A stretch of DNA of 25,162 nt from a virus. The notes below the pieces were generated by a model. The model had not been told where the DNA came from, made no database searches, and was given only the letters and a program-made list of their open reading frames with translations. How positions within the stretch are numbered: position 1 is the first letter of the stretch; every line of letters begins with the position of its first letter. Below, piece by piece: positions 4,948 to 25,052 of the stretch. The stretch covers positions 1-25,162 of IMG/VR virus record IMGVR_UViG_3300009173_000072. The stretch is one strand, 5' to 3'. The position numbers and the translations under genes were made by a program.

Positions 4948-4963
4948 ATCTATTCCAATTCTA

Positions 4964-4983
4964 CTATGCGTTTAAACGCATAG
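4964..4983 (-). promoter_or_regulatory. Perfect 20-bp palindrome with GTTTAAAC centre
   Basis: CTATGCGTTTAAACGCATAG is its own reverse complement. It lies in the capsid-adaptor gap, 17 nt upstream of the adaptor ATG on the coding strand. It carries the same GTTTAAAC core that caps the early-region leader modules, but is the only intergenic copy inside the late operon. It could be an mRNA hairpin or a protein-binding DNA site. Confidence 0.6.
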
Positions 4984-4990
4984 GTACTAA

Positions 4991-21408: not shown

Positions 21409-21975
21409 TATCCTTTTAGTACCTTTATTGGTACCTTTGATGCTTTTAATATTCTAGGTTCATACTTAATATATACCCCCCTACCAATATTGAACTATCC
21501 ATTACTTTTTTAAAAACTTCCTAAGCGTTTAAACGGCTTGTCTGTTTAAACTGGGAGTCTGGAAAATACTTTAATAAATAATATCTAGTGATGTACCTAC
21601 TCTGTCAGACCCTGTACAAATTTTGAATCTAAACGGGGTGGGTTGCTTTGAGATGTGAAAGAAGATAGGATATACTCACCCTATCACACTAGGTACAATC
21701 AGTTTAAACAAGCTATATATCATCAGCACGTCAATAAAGAAATAGCAAATAGAAACGTAGATACTTGGCAAGCTCACTTGACATACTCTTTCATATGTGA
21801 TAGGCAGAATTACTAATATCTTCTATGCTATTTGGTGTTACTTGTAAAGTCTGCTAGTCTTAATTTTATAAGTACTCTGAAGGTTAAATAAATTTAATTA
21901 TTTATACAGTGTTTTGTCAATACTCAGCTCGGTACAGTGGCTTAGATAACAGTTGCAAGGAACAACTAAGCTCAG

Positions 21976-21999
21976 ACCCTAAGCGAAAAATCTTAGGGT
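21976..21999 (+). other. Strong 8-bp hairpin
   Basis: ACCCTAAG (21976-21983) pairs perfectly with CTTAGGGT (21992-21999) across CGAAAAAT. Just upstream, CTTAG (21941-21945) and CTAAG (21966-21970) can also pair. These CTTAG/CTAAG arms resemble the AAG arm of this hairpin, so alternative pairings exist. No T-tract follows. Confidence 0.4.
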
Positions 22000-22129
22000 G
22001 GGCAAAATAATACAGCTTGTTTAAACGACTAAGTTTAAAAAGTGTTTCAATTAAATATCTCCTGTCCTAGTTTTAAGAATAGAGTTACCTAGATAACAAT
22101 CTGATTGGCTAAGGTCAATCACCTTTCAA

Positions 22130-22230
22130 GATAATTAATTAATTTTAATTATCGTAGAGGTTTTACAAAATGAAACCTCAACGATATTTAAATAAATATC
22201 CTGTCTGTATAAACAGACAGTAGAGAAAGG
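22130..22230 (+). promoter_or_regulatory. Leader module A (before the metallopeptidase gene)
   Basis: Outer stem ATCGT (22151-22155)/ACGAT (22181-22185), A-A mismatch (22156/22180), inner stem GAGGTTT (22157-22163)/AAACCTC (22173-22179). Hairpin 2 is GATATTTA/TAAATATC (22183-22200) and shares GAT with the outer 3' arm. Hairpin 3 is CTGTCTG/CAGACAG (22201-22220). A further hairpin, GATAATTAA/TTAATTATC (22130-22153), overlaps the outer 5' arm. TAGAGAAAGGG then leads to the ATG at 22241. This copy lacks the GTTTAAAC cap. Confidence 0.6.
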
Positions 22231-22240
22231 GAAAAATATT

Positions 22241-22972
22241 ATGAGTATAAAAAAATATACTGGTACTAGAGAACAATGGTTGGAGAAAGCCGTGAACGAA
22301 GTCTTTAAAAAATTAAAGGCTACGGGCTTCAATGACTTTGTAAAAACTAGAAACGAGATTAAAGTTTCGTTTGGACATATGCCAAAGGGGTTAAACAATT
22401 CCACAATAGGAGTATGTCAATATACTAGTGAAGATGCCGACCTTAAGAACTTAGACAAAAAAGGTACAAGGCATTTATTTATTAGACCAACTTTGAAGGC
22501 TAACAACTTAGAGGAAACATTAGACATCTTTCAAGTGCTAGCCCACGAAGTGTGCCACGCTGTTCTTCCTGCTGATGCTGGACATAAGAAGTCTTTTAAA
22601 AATTTAATAATTGGACTTCTTAAAGCAGAAGGAAAGCCAACGGCTACGGTGAGGGGTTCTGAGTTTGACAAGTGGGCTAAGCCTATTGTTAAAAAACTGG
22701 GGCTAGTTCCTCACATTGCAATATTGGAGCATCAGAAAGCACCGAAGACATCTATCAAGGTGGCTTGTGTTGATGATGGTTGTAGTGCAGGAAATGAACG
22801 AAGTAGAAGAGAAGGCTACGGAATGAATTTTCGAGTGAGTACTGCAACAGTTAAAGAGCAGAAGACAAGCCAGAAAAAAAGCGCCAAAATAATTGATGGT
22901 GAGTCTGGCGTATTTGATTGTCCAGCCTGTAAGGGTGAAACAATTATAATAGCAAAGGGTGACTTTAGATAA
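22241..22972 (+). CDS. SprT-like zinc metallopeptidase (243 aa)
   Basis: A 243-aa protein with a zincin active site: HEVCH at 102-106, with a further His at 115, giving HExxH-x8-H. The segment before it (TLDIFQVLAHEVCHAV) matches the SprT-like pattern of a helix carrying the motif. The C-terminal part has CVDDGC (176-181) and CPAC (227-230), which could form one zinc ribbon as in SprT-family proteins. Phage members are common and often annotated as SprT-like, but their substrates are mostly unknown. A role in clearing DNA-bound proteins is known for related eukaryotic Spartan proteases and is only an analogy here. The start follows leader module A and an AGAAAGGG site 10 nt upstream. It is the longest plus-strand gene. 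Confidence 0.75.
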   Translation: MSIKKYTGTREQWLEKAVNEVFKKLKATGFNDFVKTRNEIKVSFGHMPKGLNNSTIGVCQYTSEDADLKNLDKKGTRHLFIRPTLKANNLEETLDIFQVLAHEVCHAVLPADAGHKKSFKNLIIGLLKAEGKPTATVRGSEFDKWAKPIVKKLGLVPHIAILEHQKAPKTSIKVACVDDGCSAGNERSRREGYGMNFRVSTATVKEQKTSQKKSAKIIDGESGVFDCPACKGETIIIAKGDFR

Positions 22973-22978
22973 AGTAAT

Positions 22979-23048
22979 TAGAATAGAAGGCACTGTTTAA
23001 ACGGTGCCTTCAATTCTATTTATAAATTATAAATGGAGTAGAGAAAGG
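22979..23048 (+). promoter_or_regulatory. Leader module B
   Basis: Outer stem TAGAAT (22979-22984)/ATTCTA (23013-23018), A-A mismatch (22985/23012), inner stem GAAGGCAC (22986-22993)/GTGCCTTC (23004-23011) with loop TGTTTAAACG. Hairpin 2 ATTTATA/TATAAAT (23018-23034) shares one base with the outer arm. GTAGAGAAAGG follows. It begins 7 nt after the metallopeptidase stop. Confidence 0.7.
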
Positions 23049-23055
23049 AAATGAT

Positions 23056-23283
23056 ATGACTAGAAAAGATTATATTGAAATAGCATTAGCTATAAACGAT
23101 ACCTTACAACAACTTGGGGTATTAGAAAAATCTGCTGAAGGAATTGAGTGGCTTATTAGAAATCTTATAGAAAGATTAGAAAAAGATAACCCACGATTTG
23201 ACCCTAGTACATTTCGAACTGCTTGTATTAAAAATACGGGTTGGTACGCTAATTTAGATGGTACTCATTTAAGAAGGAAGTAG
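23056..23283 (+). CDS. Small phage protein of unknown role (75 aa)
   Basis: A 75-aa, mostly helical protein (RKDYIEIALAINDTLQQLG, then EWLIRNLIERLEKDNPRFDP). The RKDY start and the DNPRFDPSTF segment before a final helix match a small phage protein type I recall from many unrelated phages, with no known function. The ATG at 23056 is chosen over an ATG 5 nt earlier that stops after two codons. AGAAAGG lies about 8 nt upstream, at the end of leader module B. Module C begins right after the stop. Confidence 0.7.
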   Translation: MTRKDYIEIALAINDTLQQLGVLEKSAEGIEWLIRNLIERLEKDNPRFDPSTFRTACIKNTGWYANLDGTHLRRK

Positions 23284-23285
23284 AT

Positions 23286-23342
23286 ATCATAGAAGGCATC
23301 TGTTTAAACGGTGCCTTCAATGATGTTTAATAAATAAACATC
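23286..23342 (+). promoter_or_regulatory. Leader module C, without a gene
   Basis: Outer stem ATCAT (23286-23290)/ATGAT (23320-23324), A-A mismatch (23291/23319), inner stem GAAGGCA (23292-23298)/TGCCTTC (23312-23318), loop containing GTTTAAAC. Hairpin 2 GATGTTTA/TAAACATC (23322-23342) shares GAT with the outer arm. The AAAGG ribosome site is replaced by AGAAGATAGAAG, and the following ATG opens only 9 codons. Confidence 0.65.
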
Positions 23343-23360
23343 AGAAGATAGAAGATGAAG

Positions 23361-23455
23361 GGAAATTCTTTGGTACTGTTTTAAAGGAAGTTTAAAACAC
23401 CCAAAGAATATTCCTCTGTGATTTTTTTTAAATTTTTTTCACAAGTTTTTGTGAA
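23361..23455 (+). other. Long hairpin, two T-tracts and a second hairpin
   Basis: GGAA+TTCTTTGG (23361-23373) pairs with CCAAAGAA+TTCC (23401-23414), with small bulges. Inside it GTTTTAAA (23378-23385) pairs with TTTAAAAC (23391-23398). Then come T8 (23422-23429) and T7 (23433-23439), followed by TTCACAA/TTGTGAA (23438-23455) with a 4-nt loop. The first T-tract starts 8 nt after the stem, farther than in a usual terminator. Termination is still likely to be helped here. Confidence 0.5.
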
Positions 23456-23485
23456 TGATAGTAGAGGCTAGTAGCGACAGTAAAA

Positions 23486-23578
23486 GCATAGGAATATGCA
23501 CAGCTAGAGTGTTCGGAGTTTTAAACCTTTCTCACTGAACACTCTGAGGTGTGCAAGGCTACTTATAAATATAAGTAG
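23486..23578 (+). promoter_or_regulatory. Leader module H, enlarged and without a gene
   Basis: AGCATAG opens as in modules E and F, and CAAGGCT closes. The inner hairpin is enlarged: GCACA (23498-23502)/TGTGC (23550-23554) and AGAGTGTTC (23506-23514)/GAACACTCT (23537-23545), with a GTTTTAAAC-containing loop. Hairpin 2, CTACTTATAAATATAAGTAG (23559-23578), is identical to that of module F. AGGG follows but no ORF starts. The 120 nt after it hold nothing recognisable. Confidence 0.5.
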
Positions 23579-23703
23579 AGGGTTATCTGTCTATATAGAT
23601 TGACATATCTTAGCTAACCATTGTACGCTAACGATTAATGGTCGGCTTAGAATGGCGTTAAACACCCTAAAAAATCTAGAAATTCTAAAAATAACCAAGT
23701 AAT

Positions 23704-23770
23704 TAGAATAGAACACCCATTTTGTGGGTTTTCAATTCTATTTATAAATTATAAATAGAGTAGAGAAAGG
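23704..23770 (+). promoter_or_regulatory. Leader module D
   Basis: Outer stem TAGAAT (23704-23709)/ATTCTA (23735-23740), A-A mismatch (23710/23734), inner stem GAACACCCA (23711-23719)/TGGGTTTTC (23725-23733) with one C-T mismatch and loop TTTTG. Hairpin 2 (23740-23756) is the same as in module B. GTAGAGAAAGG then leads to the ATG at 23780. This copy lacks GTTTAAAC. Confidence 0.65.
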
Positions 23771-23779
23771 AAAAATAAT

Positions 23780-24151
23780 ATGTACGAAATAAAAACAGTT
23801 GGAGAAATTGGCGTTGATAGTGGGCAGGTGTTATTGATTGACCCTTGTTATATTAAACACGCTAATCAAGGTAATTCAAAAATGAATTATGATTTCGAGA
23901 AAGAAACATTTCTTAATGACCCAACACTAGGAAATGAAAAGAACTTTTACACGAGTGTAAGTGAGAGAACTTTAGTTGGTAATGGTTATGGTAATACTGA
24001 ATCAGGTTTTGCTACTAGAACAACACACGGTGACGGAACTTACAAAGTAAAGGGTATCTTTAGAGATGATGAACTTCAAGGAATTTTCATTAGCTTTACT
24101 GATAATCTAAATGTAGAAGTGACAAGACAAGATGATGAAAGAGGTTGGTAA
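23780..24151 (+). CDS. Conserved-looking phage protein of unknown role (123 aa)
   Basis: A 123-aa protein, likely mostly beta. The start, VGEIGVDSGQVLLIDPCYI, and a later GDGTYKVKGIFRDDELQGIF stretch resemble a family I recall in phages and bacteria, in which a DSGxxxxxDPCYI motif is followed by a GDGxY turn. No function is known to me. The Cys, Asp and aromatic residues of DPCY are the most conserved-looking part. AGAAAGG lies about 10 nt upstream at the end of module D. The stop overlaps the next ATG as TAATG, so the two are a coupled pair. Confidence 0.65.
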   Translation: MYEIKTVGEIGVDSGQVLLIDPCYIKHANQGNSKMNYDFEKETFLNDPTLGNEKNFYTSVSERTLVGNGYGNTESGFATRTTHGDGTYKVKGIFRDDELQGIFISFTDNLNVEVTRQDDERGW

Positions 24152-24354
24152 TGCACAGCGTAGTAGTATCAAAGAAACAAGCAAGCAGGGAATATAATTT
24201 GTTAGTAGCTTGTGATATGCCTGAAGGTACAAAGCCGAATGGCGACACAAGAACATTTGGCGAGTGGCTCTTATATAAGAACCTAAGACTGGAGAACCGA
24301 GAGGAACAAAAGAAACTGGATGCTTATTGGGATACATTGGAAGAAGATAACTAG
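24151..24354 (+). CDS. Small protein coupled to the 123-aa gene (67 aa)
   Basis: A 67-aa, charged protein (HSVVVSKKQASREYNLLVAC, then WLLYKNLRLENREEQKKLDA). I place the start at the ATG at 24151, which shares TAATG with the gene before and has AAAGAGG about 6 nt upstream. A TTG two codons earlier is less likely. This is the only early gene here without its own leader module, which fits coupling. Its TAG stop is part of the outer stem of module E. No domain was recognised. Confidence 0.6.
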   Translation: MHSVVVSKKQASREYNLLVACDMPEGTKPNGDTRTFGEWLLYKNLRLENREEQKKLDAYWDTLEEDN

Positions 24355-24420
24355 CATAGAGTACTTCGTTTAAACACGGAGTACTCAATGCTACTTATAA
24401 AAGTAAGTAGAGGGAAAGGA
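24352..24420 (+). promoter_or_regulatory. Leader module E, using the upstream stop codon
   Basis: Outer stem TAGCAT (24352-24357)/ATGCTA (24388-24393) uses the preceding gene's TAG. A-A mismatch (24358/24387), inner stem GAGTACT (24359-24365)/AGTACTC (24380-24386) with a T-G and C-G extension, then GTTTAAAC in the loop. Hairpin 2 CTACTTA/TAAGTAG (24391-24410) shares CTA. GTAGAGGGAAAGG follows, and the ATG is at 24427. Confidence 0.7.
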
Positions 24421-24426
24421 AAAGAT

Positions 24427-24768
24427 ATGAATAAAATTAAATCATTTCAAGGATATGTGAATCAATCTTTGATGGATGCAGGTAAACACAAGGACAAAGA
24501 TTATTTAAAAATAATGACTGGTCTATTCAAAGAGGGGCATTTAAATTTTGAGCAGGTGTTTATGTTTATGCGAACTTTGGTTAGAAATTCTGACAAGGAT
24601 ACAGTTATAAATTATCTTGGCGTGAATGATGACATATCATCACAAGTACAAGACACAGTGGACTATGGATTTATAACTGAAGGTGGAGATTACACAAAAC
24701 TTTGTGTAGATAAGATGATAGAAATGGGATTCGAGGAAACGCAAGGCGAGTCAGTACCTAGAAAATAA
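24427..24768 (+). CDS. Early protein of unknown role (113 aa)
   Basis: A 113-aa, mainly helical protein (IKSFQGYVNQSLMDAGKHKD, then NFEQVFMFMRTLVRNSDKDT). I start it at the ATG at 24427, behind the GGGAAAGG site of module E. A longer in-frame start at 24388 lies inside the module's outer stem and has no ribosome site. The helices and acidic loops suggest a small soluble protein. No family was recognised. Module F follows 11 nt after the stop. Confidence 0.65.
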   Translation: MNKIKSFQGYVNQSLMDAGKHKDKDYLKIMTGLFKEGHLNFEQVFMFMRTLVRNSDKDTVINYLGVNDDISSQVQDTVDYGFITEGGDYTKLCVDKMIEMGFEETQGESVPRK

Positions 24769-24779
24769 TATATAGTAAC

Positions 24780-24846
24780 TAGCATAGAACACTCTGTTTA
24801 AACGGAGTGTTCAATGCTACTTATAAATATAAGTAGAAAGAAAGGA
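24780..24846 (+). promoter_or_regulatory. Leader module F
   Basis: Outer stem TAGCAT (24780-24785)/ATGCTA (24814-24819), A-A mismatch (24786/24813), inner stem GAACACTC (24787-24794)/GAGTGTTC (24805-24812), T-G wobble, loop exactly GTTTAAAC. Hairpin 2 CTACTTAT/ATAAGTAG (24817-24836) shares CTA. AGAAAGAAAGG then leads to the ATG at 24857. Confidence 0.7.
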
Positions 24847-24856
24847 AAAATAAATT

Positions 24857-24976
24857 ATGTTTGACTTTAGTGGAGATAATATTTTTAATAGTCTTGATAT
24901 TTTAATTATATTATTTAACTTTATTTTCTGGGGTCATCTACTTAAAAAAGTAGTGTTTATAAAATCTAAAAAATAA
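24857..24976 (+). CDS. Small membrane peptide (39 aa)
   Basis: ATG at 24857 opens 39 codons to TAA at 24974-24976. The peptide begins MFDFSGDNIFNSLDILIILF, has one hydrophobic segment of about 18 residues (13-30, ILIILFNFIFWGHLL) and a Lys-rich tail, so it is a candidate single-pass membrane peptide with an inside C-terminus. AGAAAGG is about 12 nt upstream and module F sits before it. A holin or a host-membrane effector is possible, but one helix and position are all that is seen. Confidence 0.55.
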   Translation: MFDFSGDNIFNSLDILIILFNFIFWGHLLKKVVFIKSKK

Positions 24977-24982
24977 AGTGTA

Positions 24983-25024
24983 CATAGTATGGGGTGCTTG
25001 TTTAAACGAGTACCCAATACTGTG
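24983..25024 (+). promoter_or_regulatory. Leader module G, without hairpin 2 or gene
   Basis: CATAGTAT (24983-24990) pairs with ATACTGTG (25017-25024), including one wobble. G-A mismatch (24991/25016) instead of A-A, inner stem GGGTGCTT (24992-24999)/GAGTACCC (25008-25015) with two wobbles, loop exactly GTTTAAAC. No second hairpin or AAAGG site follows. A T-tract comes next. Confidence 0.6.
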
Positions 25025-25052
25025 CATAAGATACAAGAATTAATTTAATCAG

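Follow-up and report, generated by a model that had tools for sequence, protein, structure and literature searches.

Within a 25,162-base virus record of IMG/VR, analysed here over its whole length (the window), a repeated pair of hairpins stands between small genes, the first and second hairpin of each pair laying claim to some of the same bases. The question raised by this locus is whether such modules are two-state RNA switches at gene boundaries and, if so, what would set them and what they would control. The initial annotation of six modules (A-F) had proposed that ribosome access would be coupled to whether the first stem is formed.

The phage and its genes

The structural genes of the window, encoding the terminase large subunit and an SU10-type major capsid protein, lie on the minus strand, while small plus-strand genes occupy 22.2-25 kb with six to seven module copies between them; a covariance model detected none in the minus-strand structural block. 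The plus-strand operon is probably early, as judged from gene layout alone. Downstream of module A and upstream of module B is the gene for a 243-aa SprT-like protein (22241-22972, plus strand; Pfam PF10263, E 1.6e-6). A search for close named phages found no DNA match to a 4.7-kb region among 50,697 records. At the protein level the best named relatives of the capsid protein are from phages of Mycobacterium and Propionibacterium, those of the terminase mainly from Streptomyces phages and those of the SprT protein mainly from Arthrobacter and Microbacterium phages, and on this basis an actinobacterial host may be guessed. For a promoter or phage-polymerase reading, profile searching of 11 records with PF00940 gave no match, with the control search equally silent such that this is not evidence of absence.

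Several other features were observed. A perfect hairpin, CTATGC-GTTTAAAC-GCATAG, stands at 4962-4985 between minus-strand genes, adjoining the capsid gene, with a second G+C-rich hairpin beside it. A leader stretch of some 0.7 kb (21480-22150), in which no gene is clear, is partly conserved in relatives (TCTGACATACCCTGTA ... GGGGTGCGTTGCTTT), several of which carry a TTGACA-like box, and is possibly a structured RNA or a promoter region. In a second non-coding stretch (23370-23700) there are TAGTAGAGGC-like motifs along with hairpins and U runs; in relatives SprT is followed by terminator-like hairpins that carry U runs. The 10-base repeat GCAAGCAGAG runs head-to-tail from 25086 up to the contig end at 25162.

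Module plan, covariation and distribution

All modules follow one plan. The 5′ half reads N-UAA/UAG, a single base that is usually a pyrimidine (Y), a 6-nt segment X, usually an A, and then an inner stem of 8-12 bp whose loop is usually GUUUAAAC; in the 3′ half A, X′ (6 nt), Y and UUAU are followed by hairpin 2 (hp2), the Shine-Dalgarno site (SD) and the start codon. The outer stem is made up of X paired to X′ and of the module's first four bases paired to UUAU. Alignment of 22 modules from the window and its relatives showed compensatory changes on both sides in 14 of 19 stem pairs, the count leaning towards structure as part of this seed alignment was gathered by a scan that required the stem. 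Stem cells in the same alignment were paired in 96.8% of cases compared to 68.3% in shuffles, with a stem covariation of 0.698 compared to 0.182. The asymmetry of wobble pairs in the stems (60 G-U against 11 A-C) points to the module acting as a coding-strand RNA. In leader modules without an upstream gene the basal pairing is kept with other letters (UUAA/UUAA, CUAA/UUAG).

About 54 distinct copies were collected from related phages; these are themselves related, so that counts are not independent, and E-values from the covariance model are rough. The model found further copies in the window, in relatives and in some sister phages, and later matches fell in contigs that belong to this phage group or closely resemble it. 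Four new contigs used as an out-of-sample check yielded few new variants, consistent with the plan and adding little. Matches from a loop-based pattern scan proved to be chance only, their sequence contexts lacking modules; the model returned zero copies in 39 contigs with chance matches to short patterns, a set that included 22 of these loci. A tRNA or known Rfam element was rejected in the searches, with no match to Rfam 15 in the window at gathering score and the best relaxed matches far under threshold, and a literature search returned nothing relevant on GUUUAAAC hairpins or such phage elements. The phages in which modules bear GTTTAAAC have terminases of at least 78% identity to that of the window, and most sister phages at or below 75% terminase identity lack GTTTAAAC in the region examined; in a few of the latter (L092, L109, L108 and L111) the loops differ and the module plan is kept. 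The modules are best explained as a single family of RNA elements that lie between cistrons in a clade of uncultured phages.

The modules of the window

All modules of the window lie on the plus strand. Module A is the leader of the SprT-like gene and has no gene upstream. Its first hairpin (hp1, 22145-22191; cmsearch R1 50.5 bits, and fold) reads UUAA-U-X(UAUCGU)-A, GAGGUUU, loop, AAACCUC, A-X′(ACGAUA)-U-UUAA, and its hp2 (22183-22200) is GAUAUUU-AAAU-AAAUAUC with GAUA common to X′. An extra hairpin found in module A only, CUGUCUG-UAUAAA-CAGACAG (22201-22220), contains GUAUAAAC and sits between hp2 and the SD. Module B hp1 (22974-23023, 68.3 bits) has X=UAGAAU, X′=AUUCUA and the loop GUUUAAAC, with the upstream stop codon ending 2 nt before the module; the extended form of its hp2 (23013-23039) takes in the whole of X′ and is followed by the SD AAAGGA at 23044 and an ATG at 23056. 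In module C (hp1 23280-23330, 52.1 bits; X=UAUCAU, X′=AUGAUG) the stem base is the stop codon UAG (23281-23283) of a 75-aa gene, and hp2 (UGAUGUUUA..UAAACAUCA, 23321-23343) has no nearby gene start behind it. Module D hp1 (23699-23745, 51.5 bits) has the same X and X′ as module B, UAGAAU and AUUCUA, and an inner loop other than GUUUAAAC, with hp2 (UCUAUUUAUA-AAU-UAUAAAUAGA plus flanking pairs, 23735-23761) ahead of an ATG at 23780.

Modules E and F share X=UAGCAU and X′=AUGCUA, and CUA is the sequence common to both hairpins. In module E (hp1 24347-24398, 67.7 bits) the upstream stop UAG (24352-24354) lies within X, and hp2 CUACUUAUAAAAGUAAGUAG (24391-24410) precedes an SD at 24415 and an ATG at 24427. 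In module F hp1 spans 24775-24824 (70.3 bits) and hp2 CUACUUAUAAAUAUAAGUAG spans 24817-24836, with the SD at 24841 and ATG at 24857. It was also seen that X′ of modules E and F starts with AUG; in module E this AUG, at 24388, begins an extended in-frame version of the next gene that lacks an SD. A weak seventh module, G (24980-25027), has the loop GUUUAAAC and scores 24.4 bits with an E of 0.13 in the search of 87 sources and 0.0045 when its own record was searched; a convincing hp2 is absent, and no gene lies behind it inside the contig.

A strand shared between two partners

The 3′ arm of the outer stem and the 5′ arm of hp2 share bases in all six modules A-F, where the initial annotation had placed them. 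The extent had been given as three bases in A, C, E and F and one in B and D. Three is right for E and F (CTA) and for C, where the local fold allows up to five, but module A shares four (GATA) and B and D share 3-6 nt since hp2 can extend through the outer arm (UUCUAUUUAUA...UAUAAAUGGAG / ...AUAGAG). In every module there is further competition for the four bases after X′, UUAU (UUUA and UUAA in C and A), which belong to hp2 and can also pair with the 4-nt segment upstream of X (GUAA/UUAA/UAGA). X′ has two possible partners, X itself or a downstream copy of X through hp2, with the 5′ arm of hp2 taking 2-6 bases of X′ together with UUAU.

That this sharing is kept as the sequence changes, as had been suggested, is borne out by the joint variation of X, X′ and the downstream copy. 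With its own X′ a module pairs a mean of 3.42 X′ bases downstream and with swapped X′ 1.87 (0/500), the values being 3.04 and 1.56 with one module per X′ class (0/1000). Relatives with different X keep the sharing, as in AUGCUC-UUUAU-GAGCAU of L050 with X = AAGCAU and AUGAGC-UUUAU-GCUCAU of L061 with X = ACUCAU, and several conserved triples at X′ positions 3-6 show X, X′ and the downstream base varying jointly (G-C-G / T-A-T; A-T-A / T-A-T / C-G-C; T-A-T / A-C-G). In short hp2 forms UUAU is the loop (AUGCUC UUUAU GAGCAU at 566 of L050; UGCUAC UUAU GUAGCA at 7767 of L038) and in long forms it is in the stem. UUAU is conserved as either loop or stem of hp2, which suggests that in the long stem its pairing to the UAA segment matters. 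The overlap of the shared strand is real, conserved and stronger than first described.

Tight spacing offers another account of the sharing, in which static boundary hairpins would give 3′ protection to the upstream mRNA and a 5′ hairpin to the downstream one with no switching. This fits with the module occupying the entire gap from stop codon to SD and with three X classes (TAGCTA/TAGGTA, TTGCTT/GAGGAA, TAGCAT/ATGGTA) in which a G.G mismatch breaks the outer pair with the hp2 pair kept. However, in many X classes X′ has been matched anew to the copy downstream of it, beyond any need to save space, and the leader modules have ample space, such that static hairpins are an unlikely explanation.

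Balance between the folds and access to the ribosome site

The two competing folds are nearly degenerate, with a median difference of 0.9 kcal/mol over the 35 modules with a gene behind and a difference of 2 kcal/mol or less in 26 of them. In computed folding the outer stem forms before hp2 as the transcript lengthens. The mean probability of hp2 rose from 0.34 in the free RNA to 0.91 with nucleotides 1-14 of the module masked, as a crude proxy for a ribosome sitting at the stop codon, and is predicted to reach 0.95 after a cut at the stem centre. The claim that both hairpins could not form fully at once holds more strongly for modules B, C and F than for E, where they largely coexist (P 0.77 and 0.62) by trading just 3 pairs. 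Module E comes close to the coexistence at little cost that would speak against a switch, and favours static hairpins.

Gene starts and hp2, the latter assigned from thermodynamic folds, are linked. Where a gene starts no more than 50 nt away, 35 of 36 modules have hp2, compared to 4 of 18 others (Fisher 1.3e-8), and in 35 of 36 it begins 0-3 nt into X′. In most modules hp2 lies 3-8 nt ahead of the SD, in keeping with the described position immediately before the ribosome site. This placement, the tie to gene starts and the competition between folds would all suit control of ribosome access by the first stem. The coupling itself was not borne out; neither fold pairs the SD or start codon, mean openness of the SD/start being about equal at 0.77 with the outer stem and 0.72 with hp2, and X′ has no complementarity to the SD, making such control improbable. 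Nor is either fold an intrinsic terminator, as in modules that precede a gene hp2 is followed by an SD and not by a U run. In some relatives modules that follow SprT lack hp2, and behind them stands a distinct terminator-like hairpin that has a U run. Overall the element is probably a small folding switch at gene boundaries, as modelled from these folds.

The stop codon at the stem base

A feature absent from the initial annotation is the position of the upstream stop codon, which suggests a trigger. This codon, UAA or UAG, coincides exactly with module bases 2-4 in 28 copies, and clustering of the upstream proteins assigned these copies to about 13 gene families; just 6 other stops fall within 12 nt of a module. 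These counts depend on ORF calls, which required at least 40 codons upstream and, downstream, at least 30 codons with an SD before an ATG, GTG or TTG start. In the window the exact register is seen in module C only, with B, E and F 4-10 nt off and no upstream gene detected for A and D. Compact gene packing could by itself bring stop codons to module edges. Modules with an embedded stop default to the outer stem more than those without an upstream stop, with a median P(hp2) of 0.10 compared to 0.63 (p 0.009), a post hoc and modest contrast that gives p 0.04 with one module per family.

The explanation tentatively preferred is an intercistronic two-state RNA driven by terminating ribosomes, cleavage or both, a reading somewhat short of an even chance. 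In state 1, X′ would pair with X and UUAU with the stop-codon segment to give a long hairpin anchored on the upstream stop codon, which would form first in transcription. In state 2, X′ would pair with the downstream copy of X to form hp2 just ahead of the SD of the next gene. Where an upstream gene exists the likeliest trigger would be translation termination at the stem base, where the ribosome on the stop codon would cover X and free X′ for hp2. This could not be the trigger in modules A and D and other leaders, since these have no upstream gene. A cut in the centre of the long stem would bring about the same hand-over, and the downstream mRNA would then begin with hp2. The anatomy, covariation, competition, stop-codon position and tie of hp2 to gene starts are computed results, from which trigger, output and switching in the cell are inferred. 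With an SD that is open in either state, one can only guess at the output; processing or stability of the mRNA, or coupling of neighbouring genes, is likelier than hiding of the SD.

Possible processing of the long stem

The main rival is a site of RNase III type, in which the long stem is cut near its centre on the 3′ side and X′ then refolds, so that hp1 would become the 3′ end of the upstream mRNA and hp2 a stabilising 5′ hairpin of the downstream mRNA. The long stem is an imperfect helix of about two turns between genes (11 nt, a centre that is usually A.A, then 8-12 bp), with 4+1+6+1+8-12 positions conserved, and its geometry is fixed, 12 nt separating the centre from the 3′ base. Cleavage would account for the leader modules without an upstream gene, and the start of hp2 0-3 nt into X′ together with its predicted dominance after a central cut is in keeping with such processing. 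Against this the central mismatch is A.A in just 39 of 54 copies (U-A in 12), and the exact register of the stop codon is left unexplained. A phage-encoded RNase III was searched for and not found in 11 phage records, with a control search that worked, so a host enzyme would have to make the cut. This reading is rather doubtful, and cleavage could act jointly with the ribosome trigger.

The GTTTAAAC motif

The frequency of GTTTAAAC, 90 copies in 103 kb of the clade compared to 4 expected, raises a further reading in which it is a palindromic protein-binding site or recombination linker with the hairpins as by-products. The clearly enriched one-base variants GTTTATAC (32) and GTATAAAC (12) are mutual reverse complements, and copies in leaders stand 16-17 nt apart outside long hairpins. 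The covariation of the stems with their coding-strand wobble argues against a DNA-level element, as do modules A and D, L092 and L109, which lack GTTTAAAC yet have the stem plan, and this reading is highly improbable.

The enrichment of GTTTATAC and GTATAAAC is as expected of a palindromic site or of loops that could pair with one another. In an extended version of the switch reading the modules would be reiterated phage-wide, each with a stop in its stem and a terminating ribosome passing the shared strand to the hairpin of the next gene, such that each gene boundary would sense the translation of the preceding gene, and the palindromic GUUUAAAC loops may also pair mutually; this extended version is possible and rather unlikely. 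If the two-state reading is true, these phages would have at many early gene boundaries a compact element in which strand exchange links the close of a cistron with the opening of the following one, joining translation termination, mRNA processing and downstream expression within about 90 nt. Its rules would be directly testable in a laboratory host by way of the many natural variants, in which X, X′ and the copy of X are matched.

Comparison with known systems

The three-segment competition between X, X′ and the copy of X resembles that of the translation-controlled his and phe leader attenuators, in that the outcome would depend on whether a ribosome occupies the first segment. Unlike these attenuators, the competing segments of gene-preceding modules form no terminator, the ribosome would be at the stop codon of an ordinary gene rather than in a leader peptide, and there are many copies per genome. 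As in translational coupling, the upstream stop lies inside a structured gap (28 copies) that brings it together with the downstream SD; in the classical case that SD is concealed by the structure, whereas in the modules it is open in both folds.

The early mRNA of T7 is processed at five RNase III sites, and a 60-nt model of site R1.1 receives a single cut to give 47 and 13 nt (PMC4858673). Like these sites, the modules are hairpins recurring between phage genes, which are here predicted to be early and to share a polycistronic transcript, and like R1.1 they have a long stem with an imperfect centre in which a 3′-side central cut would lie similarly far from the base. The modules differ from the T7 sites in the second partner of X′ that forms hp2, in the stop codon at the stem base and in the conserved loop, with cleavage in their case hypothetical. 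If the long stem were cut, hp2 would stand at a predicted 5′ terminus ahead of the SD in the manner of the stabilising 5′ stem-loops of the ompA and papA type.
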